Source: Combretum micranthum | Taxonomy: Eukaryota; Streptophyta; Magnoliopsida; Myrtales; Combretaceae | Assembly: GCA_024138025.1 (NCBI GenBank) | Contig: JAMXBD010002838.1 | Location: forward strand, 94,659 to 158,658 | Length of the DNA: 64,000 bases | Direction: 5' to 3' | Shown: piece after piece, positions 741 through 61,236 of the stretch | Numbering within the stretch: position 1 is the first letter of the stretch | How the letters are laid out: the number at the start of each line of letters is the position of its first letter | Translations under genes and position numbers: made by a program | Notes under the pieces: generated by a model | What the model saw: only the letters and a program-made list of their open reading frames with translations | Database searches by the model: none | What the model was told of the DNA's origin: nothing

Positions 741-784
741 TGGGTATCCGGAACCCACACATAGAACGGATTTACGCCCTCCGT
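741..784 (-). other. Covarying double hairpin, copy E
   Basis: Stem 1 pairs ACGGA (766-770) with TCCGT (780-784) around the conserved loop GGGCGTAAA (minus strand). Stem 2 pairs TGGGT (741-745) with ACCCA (753-757) around a TCCGGA-type loop. The same pair of hairpins recurs in the other closed LTR-X copies with different stem sequences. Confidence 0.65.
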
Positions 785-1308
785 ATCTTGGGTTAGGGAT
801 GGTATTGAAGTCTACACGACCGCTGCTAGTCCTTAAGCCCTCAGCTCTTAGCACTCGCCTCGGCTAGGCTCACACATGGAATGCATCCCCGATGCGCCTT
901 AGTTTCTTATGAATGAGCTCTGATCCCGGGTCTCATTATCCAAACGAGTCCTCGGACCATACCGATCGACTTGCGTAGGAGTAGCACGCTACCAATGCAA
1001 TATGTCCGATGCGATGCATGACCAATTTAATTTTTGCTTAGGTCAAAATATTCATACATTCTTTAGAGTGACCAATCAATATCACACACATAATAGAAAT
1101 AATATGAACAGTGCAGTTATCCAATTGAATCGTGATTTCGATATGCTTTAGTATTCTTTGGCATACATTCATCACAGCCTCATCACATATCCCATCCCCA
1201 TTCATATCGATTTTATCTTGTTCCTATAATCTAATGCAACTAACTACAAGCACAAACAAGGTAACAAAACAAGGAGAAAACTCATTCCACCATAGGTTCG
1301 CCTTTCTT

Positions 1309-1356
1309 CTAGTAATAATAATCCAGAGGCAAAGATTCAACGTCCTCGAGTTCACC
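1309..1356 (-). other. Conserved 15-codon ORF/exon, copy E
   Basis: Encodes GELEDVESLPLDYYY then TAG, directly after an AG acceptor (...GAATAG|GTGAAC) and followed by a TGAGTT donor-like site. Its length and the LP-x-DYY ending match the same exon in the other copies. There is no in-frame ATG within the exon, so translation is unproven. Confidence 0.55.
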
Positions 1357-3730
1357 TATTCATATAAGAAATACCCTAATGAGCATTCTACCATCTAAGG
1401 ATACTAATACTCTAAGAAAACTTAGGGAAATTGGAATTCGCGTCATTTCCGAAGTCCCGATTTAAAATGGCCATAACTTGGTCGTTTTAAGTCGAAATTT
1501 CGCAAATTTTATATCGATTTCTATCTACTTCGGAAGAGCTTTCTAAATATGAAGTTTAAATCAAGTTTTGAAAATATCTAAGCCTCGGAAATGAGGGATC
1601 TGATCTGTACAGCGGTAACATAAATTCCGAAAATGCGGTTTTCATGAATGCACTTGAGATTCCTAAGTGCAAAATGAAACTAAATGACATGGTAATGAAT
1701 TTTCCTATCATGAATGTCATGATATGAACTCTAATGAGCCTAAGTTCCTATAAATTTTTAGACTCAAAGAATTTAAATAAACTTTTTCTTAGAAAACCAC
1801 TTCATGCTATTGTTTAACAAGTGAGTTTACTACACTTGGTCACACCTACATATTATAAGGATTTTCTTTAGGAAAACTCCACTTTGTTTAAAGAAATTTT
1901 GACCCTCATATTAGTTATATCCTAAGGCCTTTATTTCTTTAATAAAATCTTCATTTATAAACTTTTAAGTGGGTCTTTTACTAGGGTGGTTTCAAAAATC
2001 CGAATTTAGAAAATTTCATTTTCAAGTTGATTCTTTTAAGAAAATGCATTTTATACTTAGAACTTTAAGTATTTGTTTTACCTATACCCTAAGGACTTCA
2101 TTTATTTAAGAAAATACCATTTTTGAAGTTGGAAAACTAGTGTTTTCTGACCATCTATCCATTATTACGAATTTGGCTTTCAAGACTTTTCACCCAAAAT
2201 TTCTTTTAGACTTCATCTCTTGTTTTAAATATTTTCTTTAGTAAAAACTCATTTAAACTCATGAAAAACATCATCAAACATTATCTATCACTTATAGGCT
2301 TCATTTTTCTTATAAAATACATGTTTAGAAGTTAGTAAAAGGGTTTTTAGTCTAGGGTTCCCAAGCCATCCGAATTTACACTAACTCATTTCTTGAAAAG
2401 CGTTTTCCTTTTTGGTTTTGTTAACTTATCTATCTATAGATCTATGTACTAGAAAGGTTATTTACTAAGAACAAAAACATTAAAGACTATGAATGCACAT
2501 AAACTCAAAATAAAGATGAGATCTTAAATGTCTACATAAATATGAGTAGTAAAATGATAGTCTACTACATCAAATGCTTAAATAGGTTTTGAAAACATAA
2601 AAACTATTTTTGCAAAAGTTCTTTGTTCAAAACACTTTTTGATGGAAAATCATAAAGTTTATGGCATGAAATCTCCTTTAAATGTTAGATCTACTTTGTG
2701 ATGGTTTGGTATCCTTGTTTTGATTTTTCATTGTCCCTACCAAAAGATCATGGGGAAATTTAGTTGAAATATCCAAGAATATCCTTGCCATAACAAGGAT
2801 CTATGAGTAGAATGAGTAGAAGTTTATTTACATAGAGTAAAATAGGAGACAAAAGAAAGAAAATGGAAAGTTGTGTGTGTGGGTGTGGGAGGCCATGGAG
2901 GTCTCGGCCAAAGGGGAAAAGAGGGAGTGGAGAGGAGAGAAAAAGAGAGTGTTTTACCTTTTTGGAAAGTTTGAAAGTGAAAGAATGAGGAAAGAGAGAG
3001 AAAAAGTAGCTTATATATTAAATGGAATTAGGTTAAATGAGACTAAAATAATTTTTAAAAAAAATTCAAAATGGAACTTGTTGGAGGGGGTTTCACGCCG
3101 ACCAATGCATGAGGGGGAGGGGGAAAATTTGATTTTCTTTGATTGATTTGTCTTTGATTGGATTTGAGTACAATTTGTCATTAATTGTATTGATATTTAG
3201 GAGACAAATCCTTTGAAAAGGGAAGTGATTGAGTGATGGTAAGTGTTGCAAGTGTAGGGTGTACAAATAGGTAGTCATAGGTTGTACTTGTGAATAGTAA
3301 TGAATAGTAATCAAGACAACTTAAATACCGATAGTAAGAAAAATACGAATAAGAAGGTTATAACTGTATTTTTTGTAAGCCGAAAAATTATGAAATTTAT
3401 ATTTTTGCAATCCTTATTTTATTTCGATTCAAATGAATTTCATAAGTAAATTTTTGAAATTCTAGTTCCGGGGCACGCTTTTCTATAATGGGTCTCGGGA
3501 TAACCCGGAGTTGAAATTTTCTCAAAATCTGATCATCTTTTCTTGGTTTGAAATATAATCAAGAACTATATCCAAAATTAATTTTGCTTATAAAAGTTTC
3601 TCATTTGGAAACCGAGAAAAGCCAGAATTAGGGTTTCTAAGTCTTCTCACAAAGCTTGAATAAACCGGTTAGGGTTTCATTTTTTTGGTTTTTGAAGTTT
3701 ACTTGATTACTAGGAAACCCGAGGTATAAA

Positions 3731-5019
3731 AAAAATATAATAATAATAATAATAATAATAAAATTGTGTAATGAAATAAAATGAATAGTGCAAAAGACTA
3801 ATCAATTACCGGTAGAAATGAAAATACGATAAAAGGTTATAACTGTAACTTTTATAACCCGAAAAAATTATATAACTAATATATTTGGAAACCTTATGAA
3901 ATTACGAGTCTAATGCACTATTGGTATATTTTTTATATCTCGAGCCCTGGGACATGTCTTTCGAAGTCTGTATCCGAACGGGTTCGAAATAGGTCAAAAA
4001 TTTACCAATCTGATAATTATAACGAACTTATATTACTACAAGCTATTCTACATATTTAAACTACATCTCGGCCTCTAGGGTTAAGGGTGTTAGATTGCCG
4101 GACTTACACTATTGTATTCCGGTTAGGGTTTTCGGATGATTTTCCGGTTTAGACCTTTGCCAATTTGGAAACTGAGATTTTTTGTTTATACAACGTATTT
4201 AGTTTGAGAAATTTATTTTAAATTTTATTTTTTATAACTATTTATATCTCTTACTGCTTCGGAAATCTTGAATTGAATTATTATATCCGGAGTTATATCG
4301 GTAATGGTTACCGATATGATTTTCTTGAGTTTGAGTCAAATATCGATTTTTGGAATGATTTTGGGAAATCTTAATTTTTATAATTTGCTTTGAAAAAGGA
4401 TCTTCATAGTGTTTTGTTTTCGAATTTATTTTGCTTCGATTTAAGGTTTTATGAACAATTGGTTAACTTAAGGATTATTAATTTGTTATTTTGTTTCTTG
4501 AATTCTTCCTTCTTAAGATTACGAGATTTCAATTTCTAACTCGTTCTATGATTCTTGGAGTTTGATTTGATCGTTAGGGCTTTATTGTGATTTCCGTCTC
4601 TTAGGATTATTAGTCTGGTCGTTTGGGGAATTTCCAAAGTCTATATTTTATTATTGGCAGATAAAGTTTTCTTAATCGTGCCAAAGCCTAGTTATGGAAT
4701 TGGCCTTTGGTGATTTCCTGATCCTTCAAATTGTCATGTTACAATTAACTTGCTTTTTAGCAAATTATCACTGTGTTTTATTTTTATCCCGATTTTTATG
4801 AATTATATATTAGGTAAGCAGTTTATCTTATGTAATGGTTTTTGGACTTAAGGACTTTTGTAGTCCTTATTTTATTTTTAGATTTTCTCAAGACTAATGA
4901 ATTCTTACTTTCGTTTATATTTTAGGACTCGTTCGAAGTTCGGTTTTAATTTGGAGTGATTTTTAGGGTTTATTTCAAAGTCCATCTTAAATTTATACTG
5001 AAATTTTCTGGGGCTTACA
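3731..5019 (-). repeat. Extra U3-like unit of copy E
   Basis: This part precedes a second element-like start at 3730 (TTTATACCTCGGG on the minus strand, compare TGTAAACCCCAG at the start of F). Both units hold the ACCGGT / ACTATTCATT motif cluster (about 3770-3830 and 3290-3330), but only the second has a TATA box. Copy D has the same arrangement, so it is a subfamily trait and not a local accident. Confidence 0.55.
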
Positions 5020-5277: not shown

Positions 5278-8200
5278 TATAAGCCCTTGGATTTCTCGAT
5301 ATATAATCCAAACTCTAGAACCGGAAGTCAAATTGGAACCCTAAAGTTAACTTAGATCTATAATTAGTCTAGTGAATCTAGATCCGGCAATCCCACATTC
5401 TTAAACCCTAAACAACGGAATTAAAATAAGTGTGGATAACGGTTTGTAATAATATAGGAAAGCTTAAAAATATCAGATTCGTTAATTTTCAGTGCGTGTT
5501 TGGATTTCAAAACCGTATCCCGATACCTCGGATAATGAAAATATTCCGACAATATCATTAGACTCATAAAAAATAAGGTTTTCAAAAATATCAGTTTTAG
5601 AATTTTTCGGTAGCTAAAAATATTAGATATAGGCTGTTTACGCGCATTTCCTTTTCTACTGGTATTTTAACTGTCTAGTCTACTATTCATGATACTATTT
5701 TTACTATTCATTACTATTTCACTATTTCACTATTTCTACTTTTTCTTACAATCTACTCTTACACACTACCACACCTATACCTTACAATTTACCTTCCCCA
5801 TACAACTTTAATTATATCACACTTTACATATTACTTCTTCTAATTACAAAACAACAAAAATAAACAATTTCTTCCCCCTTTTCACCCTATGGCCACGCGT
5901 AACCCACACTCCCTCTCCCTCAATTATTTTTGCTTTTCATTTTGTTTTATTACATCTAATTTTCACTCCAAAATTCTATAAATACCCCATCCCTCCTTAA
6001 TTCTTTCACACAACTCATTTTCCTATCAAAACTCTGCCAAAATTACTCCACAAATTCCCTCTCTCAAATTCTCTCCCAAATTCTCTCTTCTCTCCACAAA
6101 ACCGTTTCCCACATATTACTACAACCACTTCCTTTCCTCTTCAACATACACATAACCTTAGGTAAAATTTCTTACATATACTCATCATGTTCATATATGT
6201 AAACCCCAGTTTTCCTAATAATCAAGTAAACTTCAGAAACCGGAAACTAAAACCCTGAACTGGATTAGTATAAACCTTGTGAGAGAAACCTAGGAACCCT
6301 GGATCCGGCTTTCCTTCGGTTTCAAATTAAAAGAACTTTTATAAAATAATTTAATGTAGAATATTGTTTTAAAGTATATTTCAAACTATAAAAAGTTCTG
6401 ATTTCGAAAAATTTTCTATTATGGGCCTTCCCGAGATCCATTACGGGAAAGCGATCCTCGAAACTAGAAATTCAGAAAAATATTTCGGAACACTCTTTAG
6501 AACCGAAATTTAATAAGGATTTCAAAAATATAAATTTTATAATTTTTCGGGTTATAAAAATTACAGATATAGCCTTTTTCTCGTATTTTCTTTACTACCG
6601 GTAAAGTAGTGTCTTGTCTACTATTCATTACTATTCACAAGTACAACCTACTATACACACAAGCCATACCCTAGTCTTACATTCTTGTAAATACTCAATT
6701 ACATTTCTTTTCTAATGAAAATTTGTCTCTTAACAAATTATTACATTTAATATTTTTTATTACATAAATTACAAAACAAATTCAATTTAACTCTCTCTCT
6801 CCCTCCCATTGTGGTCGGTGCACATCCCCCCTCAATTACTCTCAATTGTGTTTTATTTCTTTTTTTATTACACATACCCTAATTCACTTACTATAAATAA
6901 TCTTTTACATTCTCTCTCCTTCATTTACTTCATTTGTTTTCCAAAATTCACACAACTCTCTCTCTATTTTTCCTTGTTGCCGTAAGCTCTCCTACATACC
7001 CCCCACACACACAAAAGCTCATTTCTTCTTTATTTTTCATTTGATTCAAGCATTAGGTGATGAATCCTAACCCTTTTGTACCATTAGATCTTGTAATGAC
7101 AAGATTATTCATGAGTATTTATACTTTAAGTCCCCATGAGCACTTTGCTAGGGACAAGAAAATACTAGTACATGAATATCAAGCCATCAAATGATCTTCA
7201 TGTTCATGCATATAATGGTAGAATAAAGTAGAGATCTTGCATAAAAATCCATGTTCATGCTTTTAAACTTCATTTTATGCATTATAAGTAATAGATCTAA
7301 CATTTAGATACTCATATTATACTTGACATTCATGATCTCATGAATATTTTGTGTTTTCATGCATTAATGCTCATAAAGTTTTTGTCTTGTGCATATAAAT
7401 GTTGTAGTTAGTGGATCTTTAAGTAGATAAGACAAGGAACTCAAAAAGGAAAAGTTTTGGTTTGAAATGTTCAAAGAAAAATTTGTATGACTTCAAAGCT
7501 ATGTATTAGAAACCCTTTTATCAACCCTAAAACTTATGTTTTATATAAAAAATGAAGGGTATAGGTCATAGATATCATTAAGTAATGATTTTTATAAGTT
7601 GAAATGAGTTTTGGTGAGATTAATGTGTAAAACAAAGAGTAGAAACAATATAGGAAATTTTGAGTTACTACTCAATTTAGGAAATTCGTAATTTTGGATT
7701 ATTGCCATAAAAACACCTATTTTCCAAGCTCAAAATGAAAGTTTTATTTAATAAATGAAGTCCTTAAGGGATAAGTATAGTAAAGCCTTAAATTTTAATG
7801 CATTAAACAAGTTTTTTTCAAAGAAAACATTCAAAAACTAAATTTCTAAAAATTCGGATTTTGGAATAGATCTTACTTGAAAACATGTTTACAAAGTATA
7901 AAATGAGAATTTTTATATAGAAATGAAGGTCTTAAGTAATAGATATAATGAAGACTCAATTCTAACAAAGACAACTAAAAATTCTTAAGAAATAATCTCA
8001 AACACAAGTGAGTTATCAAAGTTAGGAAACTAGTTTTCTTAAAATTCTTGAAGTCTTGCAAGGTAAAGAAGTTCTAAAATTTTCTTTTTGTAAACATCAT
8101 CAAGATCATGCATATATTAAACTCACAACATTCCGTTCATGATAGGAAATCATTAATATTGCATGTATAATTGATTTATAAAGTAGAAACATTTCAAAAT

Positions 8201-8490
8201 TTATAGAACTATTTTCGGAATTGGAAAATCGTTACTGATCAGAACTGATCCTACTTTTCGTGACCCAAACATTTTCAAAACTTGAAAATAATATTATATT
8301 AGATATATCTTTTGAAGTAGATAGAAGTTGATATATAATTTGTGAAATTCGAGTTAAAATGACTAAGTTATAGCGTTTTTAAGTTGGGACTTCCGCAAAT
8401 GACGAGAATTATGAATTTGCTAAGTTTTAATATATAGTTTGGATTAGTTAGATAAGTGATGAAAACTTATATTTGTATTTCTTCTTTTTA

Positions 8491-8538
8491 GGTGACCTCG
8501 CATTTGATGATTCTCTACTGCCGGACTATTATCACTAA
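8491..8538 (+). other. Conserved 15-codon ORF/exon, copy F
   Basis: Encodes GDLAFDDSLLPDYYH then TAA. It follows a textbook pyrimidine-rich acceptor (CTTCTTTTTAG) and precedes the donor-like CCGAG|TGAGTA at about 8560. It is one of eight intact-length versions in the window. Confidence 0.6.
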
Positions 8539-8870
8539 GAGACCGGTGATCCATGGCCGAGTGAGTACCACTTCCGATTTCAATTATTGTATGTGGTTGT
8601 AATGATAGTTGCACTAGATACTTGGTAAAGATAAAATGGATATGCATGATGGGGATAAATGGGAATTATATATGGTTGTTGTTGATATGAGGAATTGAAC
8701 TTAAGAATATCGAAGCCGGGTGATTAACCATTGCTTGTATAGATGAATTAGGATTGACTGTCTGCGATTATTGATTGCTCACTTAAAAGAATTGGTATAA
8801 TTGAATATTCGGAATTGAATATAAATATGGAATCATTCATATCATAATGGGGATTGAGTATTAGTATTGG

Positions 8871-8995
8871 TTGGTTTTCCATGATCCTAAACGGTGTAAA
8901 AAGTTGGTTAATCATGATCCATAAACGAATTAATGAGTTGGTTAATCGTGATCTATAAACGAATCATAAGTTGGTTGACCGTGATCCTAAACAGC
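8871..8995 (+). repeat. Minisatellite in copy F
   Basis: About four units of 30-38 bp built on TTGGTTAATCGTGATCC-ATAAACGAAT. The same unit type is expanded independently in copy D (41627-41785). Other copies carry different tandem units near this spot. Confidence 0.6.
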
Positions 8996-9036
8996 ATACT
9001 AAGTAGTACTGTAGGATTCGTTAATCTACTAACCCA

Positions 9037-9086
9037 GGATGGAGGGTACAAGTCCATCCACATATGATTTCCGGCTGGTCATATGT
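9037..9086 (+). other. Covarying double hairpin, copy F
   Basis: Stem 1 is GGATGGA (9037-9043) / TCCATCC (9053-9059) around GGGTACAAG. Stem 2 is ACATATGA (9060-9067) / TCATATGT (9079-9086) around TTTCCGGCTGG. Both stems are perfectly paired. Confidence 0.75.
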
Positions 9087-11274
9087 TTGATGATTCACGT
9101 GTCTGATGCATATCACTTGTCTGATTAATCACTTATTTGATTGACGTGTTATAATTGTGATCTTGGAAGTTCTCACTTACTAAGCTAGTGTAGCTTATGT
9201 CCCTACAGTTTTTATTTATTGCAGCATGAATTCATATGGCTTAGACCGAGACGAGCTGCAACTCAGGTACAGGAGCTATGCGTTTCCTCTAGAAATTGTA
9301 TTCAAATTGTTTAGACTTCCATAGGAAACCAAGAGTCTCTAGATGACTATAATAGATCTCTGACTAATATTCTTTTGCGGGGGAATGCTCCTTAGATTTT
9401 GTAACTAACTACATAGGTGTTTTGATTTATTTTCTAATGCTATTGAATGCGGAATTAAACACTTTAACTCCATCGGGTCGAGTATTCTATTGTCGCAAAG
9501 GGACACCTTATATCTATACAAGACTCTCGAGGAACTTGGGTAGTGATTCGTGAGTCTTATATGGCATGTGGCGGACTGTTACTTACAGGGCACCCCTATG
9601 GATCGTGACAATATAACTTCACATGAGCTTAGTGTATATTTCTTAGACTCATGAGAGTTAAAGAAGCAACAATATATTCACATTTTGTTTTTGTTCATGT
9701 TTAAATTTTCTATTATGTTATTAATTGTTATTATATTTTTGTTATTATTGTTATTATTATTTGTTCTAATCTAACTTCTATATAATATTATGTATATATA
9801 TTTTCTAGAGCATATGAGCTCACTAACATAACATTTATTTATTTATTCATGCTTTGCAATTTATTTATTTACTTGTTTTATGCAAATTATTAAGACTAGT
9901 CTTTCTAGTCTTAGACTTGTCCTTATCAAGTCAAAACAATTTTCTTTCTTTTCTTTTTGGAACTAATCTATTCTTAGTTTCGAGATACCTTGATGAAGCT
10001 TAGGTTCCCAATACTTGATCTTAATATTATGCTCTTATTGATTCTTACATATATCTTATCTTATTATGCTATATTGAATATATTTCTCATGACTACATAT
10101 TCATGATCATGCATGGGCATATTGATATTGTCTTAACAAAAATATGAAGAAAATATTTTTATGAACTCTTTTCAAAAATAATTTTTGGTTACCTAAAGAG
10201 GGGATTTTCATTAAAAAACTAAGAGTTTTACTTTCACAAATCTTTTCCAAAAAATTAAGTAAACTCATAACAAGTCTTGGTAACAATTGTACATTAGAGT
10301 TTTGACAAAGGATTTATAAAGTAAATTTTCACACATACTCCTTTCAAAGATGATAAAATGGAGAAAAGTCTTCTTTGAAAATTTAAGATTTTAAATTCTT
10401 GCTTAGCAAAAGTTTCTTTAAACTTATTTGTAAAAGTTCATCAAAACTCTAAAGTACTAAGGTAAAATAAGTTTAGCAAGATTATCAAGACGTTTTCTTT
10501 TTAAGAAAATAAATTTCTCTTGGGGAATAAAATTAGTGAAAAACTTATGAAATCATTATTACTTATTAGAGTAAATCTTACTTTAGGAAAAAGTAAGAAC
10601 AAGTGAACTTTAAGAAATTTTTATCACTATCAAGAAAACATTTAAAAACGATACTTTTTACTCCTAAAAATGAAGTTGTAGGAATTTTAAAAGACTAAAA
10701 TTATTTTGGAAATTTTGAATTGTTTTCAAAGGATAGATAAAGTTAAAAAGAGAAAAATACTTACTTATAATAATCCAAGAATTTTTCCAACAAAACTAAA
10801 ATAAAAAATTTCAAAGCATTACTTTTCCAAATCTTAGAACACTTTATTTTACAAAAATCATTATTGAAACAACTTCACTAAATTCATGCTTATGATATGA
10901 GTCAATATATACATGTTCAAAAGATTTTTCCAACTATATTAATATTTATATTTTGGTACAACGATTTTTGGGTAAAAAAAAAGTTTGAAAACTTGAGTTT
11001 TGAAATCTGGAATTTCCGTGATGAATTTGTATGTCACTTTTTCGAGACCAAAATGGCTTCTTTTGATGCAATAACCTTAGAAATGAATAGATCTTTTCAA
11101 GTAGGTAGAAAATGGTATATAATATGCGAAATTCCGAGTTAAAATGAGCAAGTTATAACCATTTTAAGTTGGAATTTCCACTAGTGCGAATTTTGACGAA
11201 CCTAAAAGCATAGAGTTAGAAAATTTAAGTAGAACTTGGATAAAATACTCATTTCGGGTATTTCTTTTGTTGTA

Positions 11275-13951: not shown

Positions 13952-14353
13952 TATGTGATGAATGAATGATAAGAATATCGAAGCCGAATTTGTTGATTGT
14001 TATAATTGTTTCTATGTATATTGCTATATGTGAAAATAGATTGATCGCCTTAAACGAATTAATAACGGATTGTTAATTCCCTTAAACCAATTTGCTTATG
14101 GATATCACTTAGAATATCATTTCATATTTTGCTACTACTCCTCAGCATGGAACCGGAAAGGTAAGTTGCCTAATTACATCTTAAGGAATTGGGACATTCG
14201 GAGAATACGGCCTCAAGGTGTAGCCGGGTCGGATCGATTGCTTTGGGTAAGGAAAGCCCAGGGATTAGTAGTACGGTTCATTGGAACCCCAAGACGAGCG
14301 CAAACTTTGAAGGAGGTCGATTGGGGCCCAGTTCAAATTATTTCCTAACCACT

Positions 14354-14402
14354 GATGGAGGGGTAAATCCATCCTACATACGAAATCGGATAATCGGATG
14401 TA
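14354..14402 (+). other. Covarying double hairpin, copy G
   Basis: Stem 1 is GATGGA (14354-14359) / TCCATC (14368-14373) around GGGGTAAA. Stem 2 is TACAT (14375-14379) / ATGTA (14398-14402) with a longer, less regular interior. Confidence 0.6.
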
Positions 14403-14941
14403 TTGTTTGATCATATGGTTGCTTGCATTTCATATGCTTGTTTAATGAACTTGTTTGGATGCTTGTTATGAGTGCTTTTGCGTAAAGATTTTCTTACTAA
14501 GCTAGTTATGCTTATTCCCAAATAGACTTTTGATGTTGCAGAATCTATGTTTCATACTCGAGACCACCTTGATTATCCAGGTAGAACCTATGTTTTGGGA
14601 AGCTTTGAAGGAATTCTGTTTTGAAGTCTTAGATTAGATTTATTCTAAAATCTTTTAGCTTTAGTTATTTATCTTAGTAAGACTTTGTTAATATGGAGAC
14701 TTATCAGGGGAATGCCCTATAAAAGTTGTAGAACCTCATATTATGATGAAATATATTAAGTATCATTTTGTATGTTCTGCTGTCATTAACTTAAAATGTA
14801 TAATTCAACCGATCTTCCTTTGATGTGAATGTACGCTTTGTACCAATATGGAAACTTTCAAGTGATTAAAGTAGTTATTCTTAAGTTTTAATATTATGTA
14901 CGGTGGGCTGTCACGTTTAGGGTACTCGTTGGGACGTGACA

Positions 14942-35728: not shown

Positions 35729-35778
35729 GAATGGAGGGCGTAAATCCATTCAACATATAGTTCCCGGAAAACTATATG
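35729..35778 (+). other. Covarying double hairpin, copy B
   Basis: Stem 1 is GAATGGA (35729-35735) / TCCATTC (35745-35751) around GGGCGTAAA. Stem 2 is CATATAGTT (35754-35762) / AACTATATG (35770-35778) around CCCGGAA. Both are perfect. Confidence 0.75.
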
Positions 35779-36278
35779 CTTGTTTGCCCACGTGCTTGTG
35801 CATTACATTTGTTTGATTAAATCAACTTGATTGAATCTTGTTACAAGAAGTTATTTATGGAAATAGTTCTCACTAAGCCTATTAGCTTATACCCCTAGAT
35901 ATCTTTTGCAGTTTCCTTACTTATGGTTAAGGCCACGTGGACCATGCGGGCAGGTAATCTCCTTGAACATTAGAAATTTGGGTAAAATGTAGCATAGTAT
36001 TAGCATGCAATATTATATAATAGATAGTAATTTAGGGAGTTGTCCCTAAGTTTGTAAAGTCTTTGCCATGAATGAATAATTATTGTGAATCTCTTTTCTT
36101 AATATGTTTTATATCTCCTTAAGCTTCATAATTCCATATATGGTCCTCTAAAATTGTGAAAGTAAGCCTTACACTTAATATAAAAGCTTTTGGAATGGCT
36201 AAGGTTGTCATACTTAAGCTTTAATATTGAGTGTGCGGACTGTCACGTTTAGGGTACCCACTGGGGTGTGACACTATC

Positions 36279-37691: not shown

Positions 37692-38076
37692 ATATTTGTC
37701 ACGCCCCGGAGGGTACCCTAAACGTGGCAGACCTTGCATATAATACTAAAGTTAATAAATGATAACCTTGTCATGCAGGAGCTTCGATATCACATGCAAG
37801 GCGTGCTTCCAAGATAGTAGGAGACTCACAGGGGTATTACATTTAAGTAAATAATAAAAGCAACAAGAACTTATATAAATAAACATAAAATCTTCATAAT
37901 AATATCCTTACATCATCTTAGGGCATTTCCCCACTTTAGAAGTCTTTCATCAAATTAATAACAACTATTACACAAGCCTACTATAGAGATTTTCCTAGAA
38001 GCTATGTTCAAAACTTAAATACATATAGCTTCTCCCAAAAACTCCTAGTAGCTTAAACTCATACCTGGTATACGGG

Positions 38077-38914
38077 TGTAAGCCCTGGAAAATTTAGTAA
38101 ATAATTCTAAGATGAACTTTGAAAATAAACCCTAAAAATTACTCTGAATTAAAACCGAACTTTGATAAGTCCCAAATCTCGAACGAATCTAGAAACTTCA
38201 GAATCATGAGAAAAATAAGAATCCTTAAAAATAAAATAGGAACTCAATATACTTCAATTCTAAAATCACGATGTACGACAAATTCTTTATCTAACTCCAA
38301 CTTATAAATCGGGTAAAATAGAGCCCAAAACAAATTATTAAGAAGTAAATAATGCTTAACCTTAGGAAATAAAACTCAATCCAAAGAATTCGAAAACGTT
38401 GAGAGATAGTAAATACTTATAAATATCAAACTTAAAATAAATTTCTCAAATCAGATATTTGTATAAACATAAAATATTAGTTTCCAAATTGGCAAAAATA
38501 TAAACCGGAAAGTCAACCGAAAACCTAAGTCCACGAGACTCCCAAGAAACCCGTAGCCTAGATCCGGCAATTCCGTATTCCTAAACCAAGGAGTCAGAAT
38601 AAGAAAAAAGCTTAGTTGGTTCGTATTAAGTTTAGGATGCTCTAAAAGATAGATTGACAAATTTTCAATCTATTTTCAATCCGGTCAGGTATAGACTTCG
38701 AAAAGCATGCCCTGAGATTCGAAATATTAAAAATATGTTATTAATGTCGTTAGACTCATATTTTTTAACAATCTCTAAAATATTAGTTTTATAAATTTTC
38801 GATAACTAGAATTACCTGATTATGTGATTTATTTGTATTTCATTACTACCGGTAATTTGCTAGTCTTCGGTACTATTTACTATTATTCATTTCATAATTT
38901 TATTATTCTTATAA
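38077..38914 (+). repeat. Extra U3-like unit of copy D
   Basis: Ends with the ACCGGTAATTT / TACTATTTACTATTATTC cluster that normally lies shortly upstream of the TATA box, but has no TATA box. A second U3 with TATA follows. Shared with copy E at an unrelated site. Confidence 0.6.
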
Positions 38915-41242
38915 TGTATACCCCGGTTTTCCTAGTGATTGAATAACTTTGAAACCCGGAGAACGAAAACCCTAAATTGGTCTGGTTCAAGCTTAGTGAG
39001 AGGAGCTTAGAAACCCTAGATCCGGCTTTCCTTCGGTTCCCATAAAAAAGAAGTTTTATAAAACAAATTAATGTGAATTATTGTTATAAAGTATATTTCA
39101 AACCTTAAAAAGTTTTAATTTGGAAAAATTTCTATTCCAGGCCTTCCGAGCTCAATTACGGAAAAATGAGTCCCAGGACTAGAAACTTAGAAAAATATTC
39201 CGGAATATTCATTAGAACTGAAATTTTATAAGGATTTCAAAAATATAAATTTTATAATTTTCCGGCTATAAAAATTACAGTTATAAGCCTTTTCCCGTAT
39301 TTTCTTTACTACAGTAAAGTAGATGTCTTATCCACTATTTACCACTATTCACAAGTACAACCACACTACACACTACCCATACCCTATTCTTACATCCTTA
39401 AACTACTTATTATATTTTCTTTTCCAAGAAATTTTTGTCTCTTATTAAATTATCATTTTTATTACATTTTATTACACAAATTACAAATTTAAACAATTTT
39501 AACTCACTCCCTCTCTCCTCCCCATCCAAACCGGCACACACCCTCCCCCAATCCCCTCTATTTGTTTTATTTTTACTCTTTTTAATACATTTAAACCCTA
39601 ATTTCCTTAATATATAAGCTCCTTTTCTTTCTCTCTCCTCATTTTTTTACTCATTTAAAAATTTTACAAAAGCAAAACTCTCTCTTCTCTTCCCTATTCT
39701 TGCCATGAAACTAGCCTTCCCCACCACACACACACACACAAGCTCATTTCATCTTCTTTTCTTCTTCAAATCTTCATTTAGGTGATGATTCCAAGCCTTG
39801 TTACTACTTAATCTTGCAATGACAAGAGTATTCTTGTGTGTTTTCATCTTGAAATCCCAATGAGCAAATGCTAGGGATGAGAAAACATTAATACATGAGT
39901 CTCAAGCCATTACAAGAGAAGATCTTGTGTTTAACAAGCTTTTGTTGAAGTATTGTTATGTTCATGCATAGAAAAGTAGAGATCTTGCATGAAAAAGTTT
40001 ATGTTCATGTGTTTAAACTCATTTCATGCACTATAAGTTGTAGATCTAGTGTTTAGACATTCATGTTTTTCTTGACATTCATGTTCATATGAGTATTTTG
40101 TATTTTCATGCATTGATGATCATAAAAGCTTAGTCTTGCATATATAAATGTGTTAGATGGTAGATTTTTATGAGAGTAAGACAAGGAACTTGAAAAGAAA
40201 AGATTTTTGGTTAGAAAGGTTCAAAGGAAAATTCGTATGATTTTCAAGACCTATTTTAAAAACCTTGAAACCACTTTGAAACTCATATTTTACATGAAAA
40301 ATGAAGGTTATAAGTAATGATATCATTAAGTAGTGATTTTTATAAGTTGAAATGAGTTTAAACATGAGTAATGTGTAAAACAAGCAGTGGAATTAAGATG
40401 GAAAATTTTGAGTTAGTATTCAAATTGTTAAATTCGTAACTTGAGATGGTGCCTATGTAAACCTCTAGTATATAAGCTCAAAATGCATGTTTTATGTGTT
40501 AAATGAAGTCCATAGGTAATTGATATAGTAAATCTTTAAAATTTTATGCATTATACAAGTTTTCTCAAAGGAAACATGCAAGAAATGGATTTTTCTAAAA
40601 TTTGGATTTTTGTGAAAAGCCTATTTAAAAATATTTTCGCAAAGTGAAAAAATGTGAATTTTTATGTGGAAATGAAGGTCTTGGATAGTACAGATGTTGA
40701 AGACTCATTTTTATTTGGATAATAAGGAAATTCTAAGAATGAAATCCCCAATTACTAATGAGATGCCAAATTTAGACAATTGGAAGTTCAAGAAGAAATT
40801 GTTAGAGTCTTGTAAGAATTATGAGTTCTTAAAATTTTCATTATAAAAAATCATCGATCATGCATATATTGGACTCATTACATGTCATTCATATTAGGAA
40901 CTCATTCATATTTTATCTATACATGAATCATCAACTAGGAATATTTTGATTAAGTGCAAAACAATATTTCGAAAATGGAAAAATTACAGAACAGATCTGA
41001 TCCCTCTGTTCCATGACTTAAATGTTTTCAAAACTTGAAATTAATAATATAAATAGATAGATCTTTTGAGGTAGATAGAAATCGATATAAAATTTCCGAA
41101 ATTCCGAGTTAAAATGACCAAGTTATGGCCGTTTTAAGTTGGAACTTCCAAAAATAGCGAGAATTACGATTTTGTCTAGTTTAGATGCATAGCTTGAATT
41201 AGTTAAGTGATGGAATTCTCATTAGGTTATTCTTATTTGGTA

Positions 41243-41308
41243 GGTGATCCTGAGAACGACGATACCCTACCACCCGACTATTACTACTTAGAGACCGACG
41301 TACCATAG
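41243..41308 (+). other. Conserved short ORF/exon, copy D (extended)
   Basis: Encodes GDPENDDTLPPDYYY, but the usual stop codon is replaced by TTA. The frame therefore runs six more residues (LETDVP) to TAG, just before the donor-like CCGAG|TGAGTA. It follows the acceptor TTTGGTAG. Confidence 0.55.
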
Positions 41309-41626
41309 CCGAGTGAGTATCAATTTTGATTTCAATTATTGCTTGTGATTGTAGTGATAGTTGCACTAGTTGCTAAGCAAAGATAAAAAGAATGATTATG
41401 CATGATGGGGTTAGTTGGGAATTATAATTGTCTGCTGTTGATATGTGAAGTTGAACTTAAAGAATATCGAAGCCGGGTGATAAGTTATTGCTTGTATAGA
41501 GAAGAGCTGGAATTGATTGTCTGCGAATATTGCTTGGCCACGTAAAAGAATTGGATTAATCGATTATTAGACATTCAATATAAATTTGAACTCATTTATA
41601 TCACGATGGGGATGGAGCATTAGCAT

Positions 41627-41785
41627 TTGTTAGTTTTTCGTGATCCATAAAATGAATATGTTGGTTAATCGTGATCCATAAAACAAATATATTGGTTAAT
41701 CGTGATCCATAAAACGAATTTGTTGGTTAATCGTGATCGATAAAACGAAATATTGTTCAGTTGACCGTGAGCTTGAACGGCATCA
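41627..41785 (+). repeat. Minisatellite in copy D
   Basis: Four to five units of about 33 bp, core TTGGTTAATCGTGATCC-ATAAAACGAAT. Same unit as in copy F. Confidence 0.7.
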
Positions 41786-41815
41786 TACGACATGATTCGT
41801 TAATCTGCTAACCCA

Positions 41816-41865
41816 GGATGGAGGGCGCAAGTCCATCCACATATGATTTCCGGTTGGTCATATGT
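41816..41865 (+). other. Covarying double hairpin, copy D
   Basis: Stem 1 is GGATGGA (41816-41822) / TCCATCC (41832-41838) around GGGCGCAAG. Stem 2 is ACATATGA (41839-41846) / TCATATGT (41858-41865) around TTTCCGGTTGG. Confidence 0.75.
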
Positions 41866-42597
41866 TTGCTAAATTCACTTGTCTGATGCATTTCACTTGA
41901 TTGAATAACTACTTGCTTGAATGATTTGTCTTCATTGCGATATAGAAATTTTCACTCACTAAGCTAGTGTAGTTTATACCCCGATTGTTTCCTATTGTAG
42001 TATAAATACTTACGGTTATCACCGAGGAGCCACGGACATCAGGTACAGCTCTTGGACATTAAGGAGCTTTCGATGAGGCCGGGGCCTAAAAGTAGAAACA
42101 GACTGCTAATCATGTTTCTTAAATTAGTATTTGAAGGATGATATGAGAAGAATTGTGAGCCTAAGAGCTCTTAACGTAGTTAATAAGGGTATGCCCCCTA
42201 GTTCATGTAATAGTATAGTTTTATATAAGACGGTTATGATTTACATTCTTGTTGCTTTGAATGTCTCTTTAAACTACTACGAAGCAAAGCATGGTCTCTG
42301 TATGTTGAGAGTGAGCCTTAAACCCGATGTTCAAACTCATGGGAAGATTAAGGTTGCCTTACTTGAGTTTAAATATTCAGTGTGGCGGACTGTCACGTGT
42401 AGGGTACTCTTTGGGGCATGACAACGGGGCTCCTTGGGGCCAACCAAAGATAATCATATTGTAACAAAAAGCTATAAGGGTATAAGCAAATCTAGCTTAG
42501 TGAGATAATTCCATCTACAAGACATTCCCATAATTCAAACAAGTATTTAATCGATCAAATGAGAATGCACCAAACATATGAATAAACAAAATACATA

Positions 42598-42644
42598 TGA
42601 TTAACCGAAAATCAAGTGTAACATGGATTTTACGCCCTCCATGT
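42598..42644 (-). other. Covarying double hairpin, copy C
   Basis: Stem 1 is ACATGGA (42621-42627) / TCCATGT (42638-42644), loop TTTTACGCCC on the plus strand. Stem 2 is TGATT (42598-42602) / AATCA (42610-42614) around an AACCGAA loop. Confidence 0.7.
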
Positions 42645-42685
42645 CGAGGGTTGGGAGGTTACAGGCCTTTACGACCATCAATATT

Positions 42686-52350: not shown

Positions 52351-52828
52351 TCACTTGTCATGCCTCGAGGGTGCCCTAGTAGAAGTAGACAAGTTACACT
52401 TGAATACTATCACTAGATTACCTTCGAAGAGCGATATATTTTTCAAAATAATAGGATCTTTTAGTTACTTTGATAAGAAGTATAAATACATGTAAGATAT
52501 AAATTAGTAAATAACTTTCATCTCAATCATAGAGTATCATAAATTATTATAAACCATGTAATAAACTGAGAAGATAATACTAGCTAATCTATTCTAGGAA
52601 AATATAAACCGTCAATTCTAAATAGAACCATAGGCTTCCAGCTCTTAAGCTCTTACTGGAGCCATATTTTTGGAAGTAACTAACCAAGGTCGAAGCATAA
52701 ACCTAAAAAGACTGCAGAAGTGTGAGCGAAACCATGATTCAGTGAATAACCAGACATATTACACATCAAACAAGTTATTAAAAAATCATATGTGATGCAA
52801 TCACTCAAACATATGCTCAGATACAAGC

Positions 52829-52876
52829 TTGGATGATCTAGAATCCAAATAGGAAAAAGATTTATGCCCTCTTTTT
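52829..52876 (-). other. Covarying double hairpin, copy I
   Basis: Stem 1 is AAAAAGA (52854-52860) / TCTTTTT (52870-52876) with the conserved loop GGGCATAAA on the minus strand. Stem 2 is TTGGAT (52829-52834) / ATCCAA (52843-52848). The stem-1 sequence differs completely from the other copies yet pairs perfectly. Confidence 0.72.
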
Positions 52877-53469
52877 AGGGTTGAAGAACATTTATTTTAT
52901 GACTCACATGCCTAGGAGAGATTAAGCTTATAGGAAAATCAACGATTTCTCATCTTAGGGTTATCATTTTTAACTTATTAACTATTTTAACTGACCATTT
53001 TCTATATCCATCAGTAGAAACTCCCTTAGTATTAATCATTTCAAAGCGATACTGCGGGCGACATTCTTCGTTGCTACTTAGTTCTCGTAGAACCGACGGA
53101 ACAAAGAAAATCTTGGAAGAACTAACACTTTAGAAAAACCAAAGCATTAACAGAGAACCAAAATATTAATACGTAGCAGGTTATCACCCATTTATATATG
53201 CAATAATGCAGTACGTGCAATGCATGATCTGGTAATTAAATACGTCAATAATTCTTATTCAGTTTCATGGTGGTCATACATTACACACAATAACCATCAC
53301 ATCATTATATCATTGTATTATCACTTTCCTAATGGTAGATTAACAATCATACAATCATATGACAACACATTTCAATCAAAACATTCATATTATTATCTTT
53401 GCATTACATAGTAGCTGATTACAAGCACAAACAATATAATATGCCTGAGTTACTCCCTGCTCATAGTGA

Positions 53470-53517
53470 CTAATCGTAGTAATCTGCCGGTAGGTCCTCT
53501 ATGGTATCAAAGTCACC
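53470..53517 (-). other. Conserved 15-codon ORF/exon, copy I
   Basis: Encodes GDFDTIEDLPADYYD then TAG, after the acceptor CATCTCAATAG and before a donor-like GGGAGTAACT (minus strand). Confidence 0.6.
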
Positions 53518-55821
53518 TATTGAGATGAATAAAATATTCATCAATAAAACATAGATTATATAACTAAACTCCTATAAGTGTCTAGTGTCCTAAATTGATA
53601 TTTGGCTCAGTTTCTATTACTTATTTTGGTCCATTAATGGTCTTATAATAACAATTATTATTTAACATTTATTTTCATTTTGCTTGTCTTGATCTGGTTA
53701 GATATCATATACATTTATATGGTATTTGAGAAATTGATAATTAATAAGCTTATATCTTCATAGTTATCATTACTGTTTTTATATTATTCTTTAACTAATC
53801 CATTATAGTAATTCATATCCGTTTACAATTGTTTAGTGTCGTGTTTCTCTTAATCTATTTCTTATAATTATTTTGTCATTTTTAGAAGTCATATTAATCA
53901 TAAATTTAGTTTGTTTCAATTTCCATTCTTATCTATTTATCTATATGAAATATTATTTAACAATTATATTTACTTATAATACTTATTATTTCCCTATAGT
54001 TTTTAGGGTTTTAGAAGTTATCAAATATTACATAGTATTATTCTAAGTATTTGTATTTATTTATCTACTTAGTAAATTCTGTTTTGACATATATATATAT
54101 ATATAGTATATGTTATTATTATTATTTATTATATATATATATTCTATTCGTGTAATACAGACTTCAAAAAAAAAAATGTGTGTATACGCCTGCTCCAACG
54201 TCGCCGACGTTGATATCAGATGCCAGCATTCTTAAGTTTTACATGTTATTTTGTATCAGTTGCATTGGCTTGTAGGCCGCCAGCTTTACCTGTACAGATT
54301 ATACGCTGCCAGCGTATAACTCCAGTTAGCCGGTATTTGTTCATTTTACGTAAGAATAAATTTTTACTTAACTTCTGTTCCAGTAAACCGTCTCAACATC
54401 GGCTACCTAGTATGCCGCCAGCATTGAGCGTGTACACTGCCGCGTATACGCAGTGTTGACACTGTTCATCATCTTCTCCGATTTTTCTTTCGTTCGTACT
54501 TATTTTTCTCAATACATATGTATATCAAATCTACATCTAAGCATTCCTAGAGTGTTGCTAAGTGTTATTCATGTTATATATATACATATCATCATGTAGC
54601 CTATCAGCATGTAGTATAATCCTTGTTTTACAAATTTAAATGGTGTAACTAGGGTTTTTGTAGAAACTTACCTTGTTTGGACGAGTTTGGTGATATTAAT
54701 CCTCCTTCTAGAGCTTTGTTTCGACCCTTATCTTCCCTTTCCAAGCTTGTTAATGGTTGTGTTGGTATATGTTTTAAGCGAGTTCTAATTGCTTTTGAGT
54801 GACTGTTTAGGTTGTCTTTGAGCTTTTTGTGTACTGATCAGGGCTAGTCTTGTGTACTTAAATGTTTTTGTTGGATGTGGTTTGTTTGTTACTAAGTAAA
54901 TGTTTGTATATAATGAGAAGGAAGCTGCATTTTTGGACAATATGGAGAAGTTGTCCACCGAAACAGCTGGGTTACACCATGATTTGGCTGCATTAATTGA
55001 AGTGTTTTGTTGGGAAAATTTCATTGGCTAATCCTTAGTCATTTGACCTTGTTTGGTGCATATTTGGACAAATTGCTTGAGAATTTCAGCTGTGCATGTC
55101 CCAAAGAATTCCCAGCTACAATTTTGAGTACAATTTGCACCGAAATATTAGAGTAAATGATATTATAATGATATATAGTTAATTTATCTTAGTTTTAGGA
55201 TATTTTAATAAGTTTAACGGGTACCAAAATGACAATTATTCAAGAGTTTTATTTTAAAAATTTGTATAGAGGTCTACAAAATTTCTAGATTATTAATTAG
55301 TTAAATTTTAAATTTAAAGTTTATGTGATAAATTATTTTTAAGTTTTATCTCACCCGATGAGGGTTTTCTTAACTTAATATGTCAATTTTTGTTTTAGCC
55401 TCTAATAGCTTAAGAATTTACTAACTAGAATAATATTGTGATCCAAAAATTTATTTGGAGTCTAGATTATTAGTTTTACATCTGTTTATATTTTTATTGT
55501 GTATTCATAATCTTAATTGTTCATCCATAAATTATCGTTTTCTAACTATAAGCATGATCGGATATCGCCTTTTCAATAAATTTGAAATCTTAGTTAGGTT
55601 ATTTCTTTATCTTAAGTTTTTCATACCCACTATGAAATCTTATTAGTAATCTTAAATACTATCCAGATAACTTTGTTTTAGGGTTTGAAATTATATACAA
55701 GCTCATTTACTTGTGGTTTAATTCTAAGGTCTTGATTGAGTCCTATATTATCATTCTATTTTTTTTTTTTATACTTTCATCTATTTCTATTTGTATGAAA
55801 AATCTCGAGGTTTACATCACT

Positions 55822-56993: not shown

Positions 56994-56995
56994 TT

Positions 56996-58152: not shown

Positions 58153-60507
58153 TTTACTGTAAACCCCGAGAATTCTAAGGAAATAGGATAGTAACAATTA
58201 AGATAGATATTGGAGTTCGTTTACCCGGTTAGGCCTTAGTTAGAAATTTTAGAGTATTATAAACCTATTTATGATCTAAAAACCCTAGATCGGAAATTTT
58301 TAGATAGTAAAAGAACTATAGCTAAATTTTATCATCCGAGTTTAGAATCTAGAATATAAGTGTAAATAAAATTTTATTTCAAGAACATTAGAAAGCCAAT
58401 GACTTGTAGTATATATAGAATGAAAATGATCCATTAAAGATAAACCGTTAGGGTTATAAATATGTACTAAAAAGCTAAAAACGAGCCTATAATTAATAAT
58501 CTAGACTTCAAATAAAACTTTTTTGACCACACCATAATAGTTAGAAAATTTGAGTCCATAGATACCAATTTTATATTTTGACCTTTTAGGCCCCGAAACC
58601 CTAATCGCGTAAGACCAAACTTTAAAAATACTAAATCGCGTAAATTTTAAACTTAAAATTTGAAGTCAACCATATTGTAGAAATATTTTGAGACCTAAAT
58701 TAAATTTTTAAAAAATAAAAATTTTACGAAACTAATATTAATATACGCGTAGGGGATAGTTTTTGACGAAATTAGTTAGATATTTTAATTTTTACTATAT
58801 TTACTCAATTGTAGACATGATTTACTATAATATGTTACAAATTGCTGCCCAAAAATTTCACCACATCCCACCTGCACAAGTCAAGGTTAGTTAGAATGAA
58901 AGGTTAAAAATTGAACAAATGAACCAATTAAAAAGCTCCACCAATGCTCTAATCATTACACTTAATAAGACCCTTACAAATCAGCAAAAGAAGCTTGGAA
59001 ATAGCCCCCTCCACACCAGAAATCACGTGGCAGCCCCTCTACAAGCCATAATTAGACAAAAAATTTAATTAATTAATTAAACACTTACTCTACAAGTTAC
59101 ATATATCTATAAATATGAGATTAAGACAATTTGGGAAGTCAAAACTCCAACTACCAGCCACTTCCCCTCCCTTTCTCCACGTGAACAGCTGCAGCACACA
59201 CACACTCTCACTTACAAATTCAAATTTCCCTCTTTGCAACCTCTATCCTTCACTTAACCTTCCAACAAATAAATAACACATAACCTAAGCTTCAACTACC
59301 AATAGAAAGCACCAATTTTTACCATTAGAAAAGGGTAAGAATTTATAAGTTAGTTATTTATTTCATAAAATATAGTAGACTTACTAATTTGCTAAAATAT
59401 GTAGGTCTTAATCAAAATAGAAAGGAGAATTGCCATCTACACTCCTAAGTCTCAAGGTAAGTCCTACACCTTTAAATTATTTCCTCATTCTAAATTACGA
59501 GAATGAATGTCATACATAGCCATAGATACATTTTTAGAAGCCTCCATAGAGTTATGTTGATGGTAGAATAAATAGAAATGATGTAGGATAAATATTTTGA
59601 ATGAATTAGAATAAGGAGGAGCCTTGAAGAAAATTGTCTAAACATTAGAAAACCCTAGAATTAAACTTTGAAATTAATACAAGACTATTGTCTTGAAAAA
59701 CCCTAGCTAATAATCTTGTAAATTAGTAAACACATTATAATTGTCATCTAAACAATTTGAACTAGCCAATGTATTACCCATTAGAAGTCTTGAACTTAAA
59801 ACTCATAATGAGAAATTACTAAAGTGTAGATAAAGGAAATTCAATGGAATAGAAATAATCTTAAGAAATATACTATAAACCGAATACATAGACAATTAAG
59901 TTGATGAACTTAAAAATAATATAGAATGGTCATTAGTAATCTAGGTGGGAACCCCTTAATTCTAATTGAGAACTCACTTTACATAAGGTTGAAAAACAAA
60001 GTATATAATAGAAGGAAATATTGATATCACTAAGCACATTGATAGGTAAAATAAATTAGAATTCAAATAAGATTCCTTGCCATTGTTAGAAGTCTAAGAA
60101 GACTAAGAAATAAAAATGATCTTGAGAAAGTCTTACACTAATCATAGAAAACTATTTGCAAACAAATAAAATTAGTAACTAGCATGCTATAGGTAAAATA
60201 AGCTTTTTAACACTTAATTATACGTAAAAATATAAGCTAACATAAGTAATATAAGTAGACTTAAAGATTTGGTACTAAAAACATGAATTTAGAATTAATT
60301 AGATCACTTTTAGTAGAGAAAGTGAATTCATACGAATTTTACAAAATATAGGATAATCCATAAGTCTTTAAACAATTAAAGATAAAAATACCTTTGGAAT
60401 TAATAAAATGACCTCACTAAGAGATAAATTTTATAGGACACTTAGACAACATTAAGAGGTATTATAAAGTCAATTATCTAATTTATGGAACTTCATTCAT
60501 CTAAATA

Positions 60508-60555
60508 GGTGAATCCGAATCAAATTTAGACTTCCCGGAAGATTATTACGATTGA
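60508..60555 (+). other. Conserved 15-codon ORF/exon, copy J
   Basis: Encodes GESESNLDFPEDYYD then TGA, after CATCTAAATAG and before a good donor AGCAG|GTGAGTAA at about 60570. Confidence 0.6.
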
Positions 60556-61187
60556 AGACATCATGAGCAGGTGAGTAACTCTGATCTATTACATTGTTTG
60601 TGTTTGTAACATTAGTAGCACCTAAAGTTATATATGAAAATGATCGTATGAAGCATGTGGGGGGAATTGTTCTTACTTGATTGGTGGATGAATGAGTGAT
60701 AAATTGTGATTATTAAAAGTGATAACAAGATTGTGTGGAAAATTTTGAAGCATGTTGAATATTGTCTATAAACTGTGTGGTCATTTGTATAAGCAATTGA
60801 TAACTGACAGGCTTATAACTTAAAGGATCATGCATTGCATAACTTGCACAATATTGCATAAAGGTGTGACAACTTGCTACGTGTTAGTATTTCGGATCTC
60901 GGTTAATGTTTGGTTTTTCTAGATGTAAATTTCCTAGTTCTTCCAAAATTATCCCTGTTCTGTTCGGTTCCACGGGAACTACTCGGCAAAAGAAGGAACG
61001 CCGCCCGTGGTATCGGCTTGAAATAACTATACTTAATGGAGTCTCTTTGTTCCTAAAGGAAATTGAGTGAAGAAACTATAATCATAAAGAAAAGAATAAA
61101 GTGAGAATTATTATTCCTATGGTTCTCTGTTTCTCCTGAGCAAGTGGGTCATAAGGATATGATCCTTGACTAGGTTCCTTCAACCCC

Positions 61188-61236
61188 GATGTGAGGGCGC
61201 AAATCTACATCCTGTTTGGATTCCGGTTGTCCAAAC
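61188..61236 (+). other. Covarying double hairpin, copy J
   Basis: Stem 1 is GATGT (61188-61192) / ACATC (61207-61211) around GAGGGCGCAAATCT. Stem 2 is GTTTGGA (61214-61220) / TCCAAAC (61230-61236) around TTCCGGTTG. Both stems differ from the F/D version by paired changes. Confidence 0.75.

Follow-up and report, generated by a model that had tools for sequence, protein, structure and literature searches.

Covarying adjacent hairpins in the long terminal repeats of a Ty3/gypsy-like family of Combretum micranthum: a selected RNA structure and possible dimerisation or packaging signal

Introduction

Retroviral dimer-initiation and packaging hairpins of the SL1/SL3 type stand side by side, one with a palindromic loop and one with exposed G residues, and lie mostly downstream of the primer-binding site. 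Among long terminal repeat (LTR) retrotransposons, Ty1 is a copia-type element of yeast, and BARE belongs to the copia superfamily, which is other than Ty3/gypsy. Palindromes in the 5′ genomic RNA of Ty1 are proposed as dimerisation sites (PMC5454406), BARE, a plant element, has spliced and unspliced RNA pools with stated dimerisation and packaging signals (PMC3735527), and the ENE of Evade, a stem-loop RNA of a plant LTR retrotransposon, was shown to promote mobility (PMC12501189). How RNA is marked for packaging in plant LTR retrotransposons was described in 2013 as poorly known (PMC3735527). Here we analyse a 64,000-nt stretch of Combretum micranthum DNA (assembly GCA_024138025.1, contig JAMXBD010002838.1), called the window below, in which nine LTR copies of an abundant Ty3/gypsy-like family carry two adjacent hairpins that are conserved as structure while their stems change in sequence.

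Results

Two adjacent hairpins in nine LTR copies

All nine LTR copies in the window (A–G, I and J) contain the two hairpins, in the LTR's own orientation, at the following positions:

736..787, minus strand: copy E, loop 1 beginning at 779; stems GA[T]ACGGA/TCCGTTC and TATGTGTGGGT/ACCCATGCATA
9037..9086, plus strand: copy F, loop 1 beginning at 9044; stems GGATGGA/TCCATCC and ACATATGATT/GGTCATATGT
14352..14403, plus strand: copy G, loop 1 beginning at 14360; stem 1 of 6 bp, stem 2 with one mismatch
27839..27889, minus strand: copy A, loop 1 beginning at 27881; stem 1 with a bulge and an A.C mismatch, stem 2 TATATATAGTT/AACTATATATA
35729..35779, plus strand: copy B, loop 1 beginning at 35736; stems GAATGGA/TCCATTC and CATATAGTT/AACTATATG
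41816..41865, plus strand: copy D, loop 1 beginning at 41823; stems identical to those of F
42593..42645, minus strand: copy C, loop 1 beginning at 42637; stem 1 ACATGGA/TCCATGT with a 10-nt loop, stem 2 with two mismatches
52825..52876, minus strand: copy I, loop 1 beginning at 52869; stems AAAAAGA/TCTTTTT and TTGGAT/ATCCAA, the latter with loop TCTAGATC
61188..61238, plus strand: copy J, loop 1 beginning at 61195; stems GATGTGA/TC[T]ACATC and GTTTGGAT/GTCCAAAC

Hairpin 1 is a 6–7-bp stem around GGGCGTAAA or near variants; its loop-closing pairs, G-C and A-U, are invariant, and the GGG and two A residues of its loop are identical in every copy. Hairpin 2 follows directly or a few bases on, with 7–11 pairs and a loop of 7–8 nt (9 nt in G) in which CGG is usual, and one or two mismatches in the stems of G and C. 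The two hairpins lie 514–614 nt upstream of the LTR 3′ end in the eight copies measured. A covariance model built from the nine copies found all nine at E ≤ 3e-13, as it must by construction, and the next best match had E 0.19.

The initial annotation, which had described the two-hairpin structure and stems that vary yet stay paired, is borne out on both points: all nine copies were located, unguided alignment and folding recovered both hairpins, and the covariation controls in the window and in the genome samples described below agree. Most of its listed stems stand, with some corrections. A single U bulges from stem 1 in E and in A (GA[T]ACGGA/TCCGTTC), and A has an A.C mismatch besides; stem 1 of J is paired as described, with one bulged U on its 3′ side; and stem 2 of I has 7 pairs including one G.U. 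Copy G is indeed weaker, and the two mismatches in stem 2 of C are to be added. A CCGG-type loop 2 had also been described as usual; the exact CCGG core is present in five of the nine copies (F, D, B, E and J), the others having TCGG (C and G), ACGG (A) or CTAG (I).

The stems covary

In a register drawn by hand, with bulges in E, A and J and a shift in G picked by eye, 61 of the 63 cells of stem 1 were standard pairs, as were 67 of 71 among the first eight pairs of stem 2. Shuffling the columns of this register gave means of 47.6 and 49.6, respectively, and the observed values were reached in 0 of 5000 shuffles. A fairer check is an unguided one. An alignment made by MAFFT and folded by RNAalifold, both blind to the hairpins, yielded 13 pairs, all of them in these two stems, and for nine of the 13 at least one copy had both sides changed with pairing kept. 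In this alignment 90.6% of cells were standard pairs, versus 76.8% in shuffles (0/500 as high) and 23–47% with slid partners. The covariation score was 0.566 versus 0.292 (0/500), and the nine doubly changed pairs compared with 4.9 in shuffles, of which 3 in 500 equalled the observed number.

Exchanging arms between copies told the same. For hairpin 1 the native arms gave −68 versus −47 for chimeras, and for hairpin 2 −71 versus −29, and none of 20,000 permutations reached the native energy for either hairpin; the chimera means omit the D/F pair (70 of 72 ordered pairs), whereas the permutations keep it. For six less related copies, a subset of our choosing, 2 and 1 of 720 permutations were as low, native order counted.

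The copies are related, and some have decayed (stem 1 of A; 12 of the 74 stem-1 pairs of the genomic sample below are weak), so that the pairing could be imagined to come from a paired ancestor whose stems decayed by chance without selection. We simulated such decay without selection on a tree built from 308 columns of flanking sequence, starting from complete pairing and with rates matched to each column, in 1000 runs that did not grant E, A, J and G their by-eye bulges and shift. Only 56% of cells remained paired (maximum 72%), and 66% at half rates (maximum 82%), versus 93% observed; 13 of 17 pairs were doubly changed, against a simulated mean of 6.5 and maximum of 12. Together with the arm swaps, these controls refute shared descent alone unless the register misleads, and the unguided alignment agrees with the register. 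We regard this explanation as barely credible.

In a held-out test, a model built from copies A–G scored J at 35.2 bits with structure versus 19.7 without on the same alignment, and I at 28.1 versus 16.4. The gain comes mostly from stem 2 of J, because stem 2 of I was misaligned and two of the four modelled stem-1 pairs of J were unpaired in the model register. Among three alignable blocks tested, that of hairpins 1 and 2 folded strongest; folding was weaker at the CACTAAGC box (−3.3) and at the LTR 3′ end (−4.8), and the promoter/exon block gave no fold.

Thousands of copies in the genome

In the 1.86-Gb assembly the stem-1 motif (AACC, 5–9 bases, GAGGGCGYAAATC) occurs at 7739 + 7792 places, about 15,500 in total, and the reversed pattern at none. 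The motif with a non-G base before the closing GA occurs at 2717 + 2698 places, again with none for the reversed pattern. GGATGGA..TCCATCC was found at 9646 places versus 63, this pattern being self-complementary, so that each place is counted on both strands. Further stem pairs among the matches listed include GATGAAGA/TCTTCATC, ATTCGGA/TCCGAAT and ACAGA/TCTGT; in 84 distinct rows among these matches the first free pair was A-T in 42, G-C in 19, A-C in 10, G-T in 5 and others in 8. Sampling followed contig order from the first place on and was not random, and because the search patterns demand the loop letters GGGCGYAAA, the genomic samples do not bear on conservation of the loop.

For stem 1 we took the 100 listed rows of the non-G pattern (58 distinct) and 31 of the 100 listed rows of the main motif (26 further distinct), the 31 picked by eye to cover G-type variants. 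Among the resulting 74 distinct arm pairs, 0 of 20,000 swaps were as low as the native energy. The hairpin-2 set comprised 55 copies, 46 genomic and 9 from the window (two further genomic loci, L010 and L013, lacked the motif and were excluded); the automatic rule misplaced hairpin 2 of G. Its 44 distinct stems had a native mean of −8.3 versus −3.6 when swapped, and again 0 of 20,000 were as low.

Sense RNA is the selected strand

The sense alignment folded at −9.8 and the antisense at −4.7. In hairpin-2 stems (26 distinct, from the 46 genomic copies), registered by Watson-Crick pairs alone, we counted 173 Watson-Crick, 24 G.U, 4 A.C and 7 other cells. G.U pairs form only in the sense RNA, and A.C would be the G.U of the antisense; selection therefore acts on the sense RNA, although relatedness among the copies calls for caution. 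The inverted repeats, with their conserved centres inside LTRs, might instead act as DNA, as a cruciform or a protein-binding dyad, and LTRs are places where transcription factors can bind. A dyad, however, should favour neither mismatch type, and both the mismatch counts and the fold energies favour the sense strand, so that we consider a DNA role very improbable. The initial annotation had left the choice between RNA and single-stranded DNA; the first part stands, and the second is unlikely on the same figures.

Several observations weigh against a selected RNA structure. One of five measures on the MAFFT alignment was not raised: further pair types numbered 15, versus 15.8 in shuffles. The flanking tree is poorly supported on its deep branches (42–57). 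Folding stability by itself is unremarkable, the 62-nt sense window having z of 0.0 to −2.3; single folds of A and I prefer a minimum other than the modelled stem 1, and the innermost bases of J pair otherwise. The seven-copy model misplaced stem 2 in copy I, and the preference for a copy's own arm was not exclusive, the own 3′ arm coming within 0.5 kcal of the sample's best arm in 10 of the 74 genomic stem-1 copies. Nevertheless, the window controls, other than that one measure, and the genome samples support the initial claim of a selected structure, and we are nearly certain that the LTR contains one, in the sense RNA.

A third hairpin near the LTR 3′ end

A third covarying hairpin, about 70 nt long and with as many as about 20 stem pairs, sits no more than about 108 nt from this end. 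It was located in seven window copies:

202..270, minus strand: copy E (through the LTR end, 166–270)
9504..9573, plus strand: copy F (through the LTR end, 9504–9610)
14834..14905, plus strand: copy G (through the LTR end, 14834–14941)
27333..27405, minus strand: copy A (through the LTR end, 27298–27405)
36166..36237, plus strand: copy B (through the LTR end, 36166–36273)
37732..37802, minus strand: copy C, beyond the D insertion (through the LTR end, 37697–37802)
42317..42387, plus strand: copy D, weak and not the minimum of the single fold (through the LTR end, 42317–42423)

For these seven copies the native combination of arms was the sole one of 5040 permutations as low. A wider set of 27 copies whose LTR end could be recognised (20 of the 46 genomic and the seven in the window), with 24 distinct 3′ arms and the I and J types left out, gave −21.7 versus −15.1 swapped (0/20,000). 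In I and J the hairpin was not alignable, and their LTR ends fold otherwise. The third hairpin adjoins the place where the primer-binding site would lie.

The LTRs and their element

Seven of the nine copies have TGTAA..GACA ends and a 5-bp target duplication, with a length of 3413–4854 and no interior, and are solo LTRs:

166..5019, minus strand: LTR E, ends TGTAAGCCCC..GACA, 5-bp duplication GTTTA
6198..9610, plus strand: LTR F, 5-bp duplication ATATA
27298..31684, minus strand: LTR A, 5-bp duplication GATAG
32618..36273, plus strand: LTR B, 5-bp duplication CTATC
38077..42423, plus strand: LTR D, 5-bp duplication ACGGG, inside LTR C
52356..55816, minus strand: LTR I, 5-bp duplication AGTGA
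58158..61720, plus strand: LTR J, 5-bp duplication TTTAC

Copies C and G yielded a 3′ end, but no start with a matching duplication was found for either. In three of the 46 genomic copies (L024, L031 and L049), TGGTATCAGAGC, which we take to be an initiator-tRNA-type primer-binding site, lies 4–8 nt after the LTR end and 540–581 nt downstream of hairpin 1. Another copy, L035, has a two-mismatch match to TGGTATCAGAGC elsewhere, and the remaining 42 gave no match within the range searched, which is what solo or 3′ LTRs would show. The duplications and the primer-binding sites support the LTR assignment made initially, and the copies are, by these sequence features, LTRs of an abundant Ty3/gypsy-like family.

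By eye, four open pieces near L049 resemble pol; Pfam names one of them (SH3_Tf2-1), and neither gag nor reverse transcriptase (RT) was found next to it. At L024 the longest open reading frame within 5 kb is 186 aa, so the element there is possibly non-autonomous. Near 4230066 and 4237668 of contig C1 in assembly G000 (L024, L025 and L058), two same-strand copies 7.6 kb apart, one of them with a primer-binding site, are 98.7% identical, 2053 aligned positions holding 3 mismatches and 20 gap openings. They are probably a young pair, and the insertion would be recent if both are LTRs of one element. In the window, positions 26868–45852 (minus strand) hold a broken Ty3/gypsy pol with pieces of protease, RT, RNase H and integrase; LTRs A, B and C have inserted among these pieces, and D in turn lies within C. 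With the Tekay clade, only the long LTRs and the 5-bp duplications agree; Tekay LTRs of beet measure 2561–3000 bp, with one of 1049 (PMC3605345).

Splice-like signals around the hairpins

In copies of the A–G type a TATA-like stretch, a promoter candidate by eye, lies about 700–750 nt upstream of the hairpins and is followed by a conserved block. Stretch and block together occupy about −760 to −680 from hairpin 1 (for example 41080–41150); the block, AATTCCGAGTTAAAATGACCAAGTTATGGCC, is more conserved than its surroundings, and neither is recognisable in the I/J type. About 500–600 nt upstream of hairpin 1 (offset −587 in copy A) stands an exon-like segment of 15 codons, with AG|GTG in eight of the nine copies by eye. 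Its last codons before the stop read DYYD (or DYFD/DYYY), and a donor-like GTGAGT follows in six of nine, again by eye. A first exon-2 pattern was too strict (0 of 46 genomic copies found); loosened, though still a strict exon-like pattern, it found 15 of 46, all in one frame and with no internal stop in 13 of them. Downstream, loose patterns found a CACTAAGC-like box 125–143 nt and a YAG end 158–178 nt after the beginning of loop 1 in all nine window copies, and the box with a later YAG in 36 of the 46 genomic copies. The hairpins thus lie between splice-like signals and would be intronic if these are used. Where they had been placed in a transcribed leader, 'leader intron' is perhaps the better term, transcription itself being a prediction.

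These signals raise a rival to a packaging role, and the main one, namely that the hairpins regulate splicing or nuclear export by holding back leader splicing or by recruiting export factors for unspliced RNA. The flanking donor-like sites, boxes and YAG ends all suit it, and structured export elements are described in mouse IAP and MusD RNA (PMC12786077). However, the hairpins stay clear of the splice-like sites: hundreds of bases separate them from the donor-like site upstream, and hairpin 2 ends more than 100 nt before the YAG. Such a role also has no need of a palindromic loop 2. We judge it improbable, if still a serious competitor.

The short conserved frame suggests another role, in control of leader or Gag translation by a scanning block, a shunt, or reinitiation after the LTR frame that ends in DYYD and a stop. 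Plant pararetrovirus leaders are described as combining structure with short reading frames (PMC5902531). Yet the hairpins lie 438–625 nt from that stop in the 15 genomic copies, and they would be missing from spliced RNA if the intron is real, which makes this role unlikely.

Discussion

Dimerisation or packaging fits best in our judgement, given where the hairpins probably lie, the G residues that loop 1 exposes and the leaning of loop 2 towards palindromes. Hairpins 1 and 2 would be part of a transcribed leader and perhaps of an intron, with the GTGAGT donor-like site before them and the CACTAAGC-like box and YAG after, and only unspliced genomic RNA would keep them. The palindromic loop 2 (CCGG, or TCTAGA in one subfamily) would bring two genomes into a first kissing contact, and Gag would bind the exposed G residues of loop 1 (GGGCGTAAA). 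Taken whole, the proposal that selected LTR hairpins in a leader, perhaps a leader intron, serve as a dimerisation or packaging signal has, in our estimate, a chance slightly short of even.

The palindromic tendency was measured on 32 distinct loops from the hairpin-2 set, the loop of G being placed by hand. A 4-nt palindrome was present in 19 of the 32 and a 6-nt one in 10, versus means of 7.3 (maximum 16) and 1.1 (maximum 6) in letter-shuffled loops. The loop TCTAGATC occurs in 10 of the 55 copies, all with I/J-type stems, so that its CTAG is an inherited palindrome rather than one decayed copy; methylation-driven decay of CCGG in a CTAG founder could explain it. Against the proposal stand the four window loops without CCGG and the 13 of 32 distinct loops without a 4-nt palindrome. 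Moreover, palindromy is not independent evidence, because most loops look descended from one CCGG ancestor, and the donor-like GTGAGT was seen by eye in six of the nine copies.

Upstream of stem 1 all nine window copies have AACC, and seven have AACCC, which could pair with the GGG of loop 1 as an H-type pseudoknot with a first loop of 1–3 nt. These letters hardly vary, so covariation is uninformative on the pseudoknot, which we offer as an idea only. Copies A and G, which have the shorter upstream C run, carry GGGGTAAA as their loop and not GGGCGTAAA. Kissing between loops 1 and 2 within one molecule (GGG with TCC) was also considered and proved, by eye, inconsistent in A, G and I. A composite module, in which an intron-held dimer-initiation and packaging unit (palindromic hairpin 2, and hairpin 1 as a possible pseudoknot) joins with the third hairpin by the primer-binding site, is conceivable, and we advance it tentatively.

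Among described RNAs, none of 4227 Rfam models matched the window at E ≤ 1, and a retrozyme hammerhead was rejected, no hammerhead covariance model matching there at that threshold. An ENE triple-helix element was also rejected, since by inspection the U-rich internal loops are absent and the stems are continuous except for single bulges and mismatches. In viral contigs the combined pattern of loops 1 and 2 gave nine matches, all in stretches with GC 0.53–0.65 and with stems absent by eye, and phage-type contigs were set aside; two LTR patterns and an integrase search of viral contigs revealed nothing related. Among the open-access papers listed in our searches, none describes this structure in its title or the start of its abstract, subscription papers being largely outside the scope. 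If real, the composite module would be a packaging-type signal of plant Ty3/gypsy-like elements that covariation brought to light, a possible but doubtful reading. A compact, covariation-supported RNA structure in a family of thousands of copies makes function testable with short leader RNAs, and the covariance model could be used to seek the same module in other plants.

Set beside the known systems, the hairpins differ from Ty1, whose RNA was probed (PMC5454406), in being described from sequence, in lying inside a 3.4–4.9-kb LTR and in having a possible intron around them. They differ from the ENE of Evade, which has U-rich internal loops in the 3′ untranslated region (PMC12501189). The third hairpin and the retroviral U5-IR loop would be alike in standing at the LTR end by the primer-binding site (PMC3601003). 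With the retroviral hairpins the pair shares its adjacent layout, one member having an often palindromic loop and the other exposed G residues; here, however, it lies upstream of the primer-binding site, at the distance measured in the three copies that have one. If true, the composite module would let the element pick its unspliced RNA as retroviruses do.

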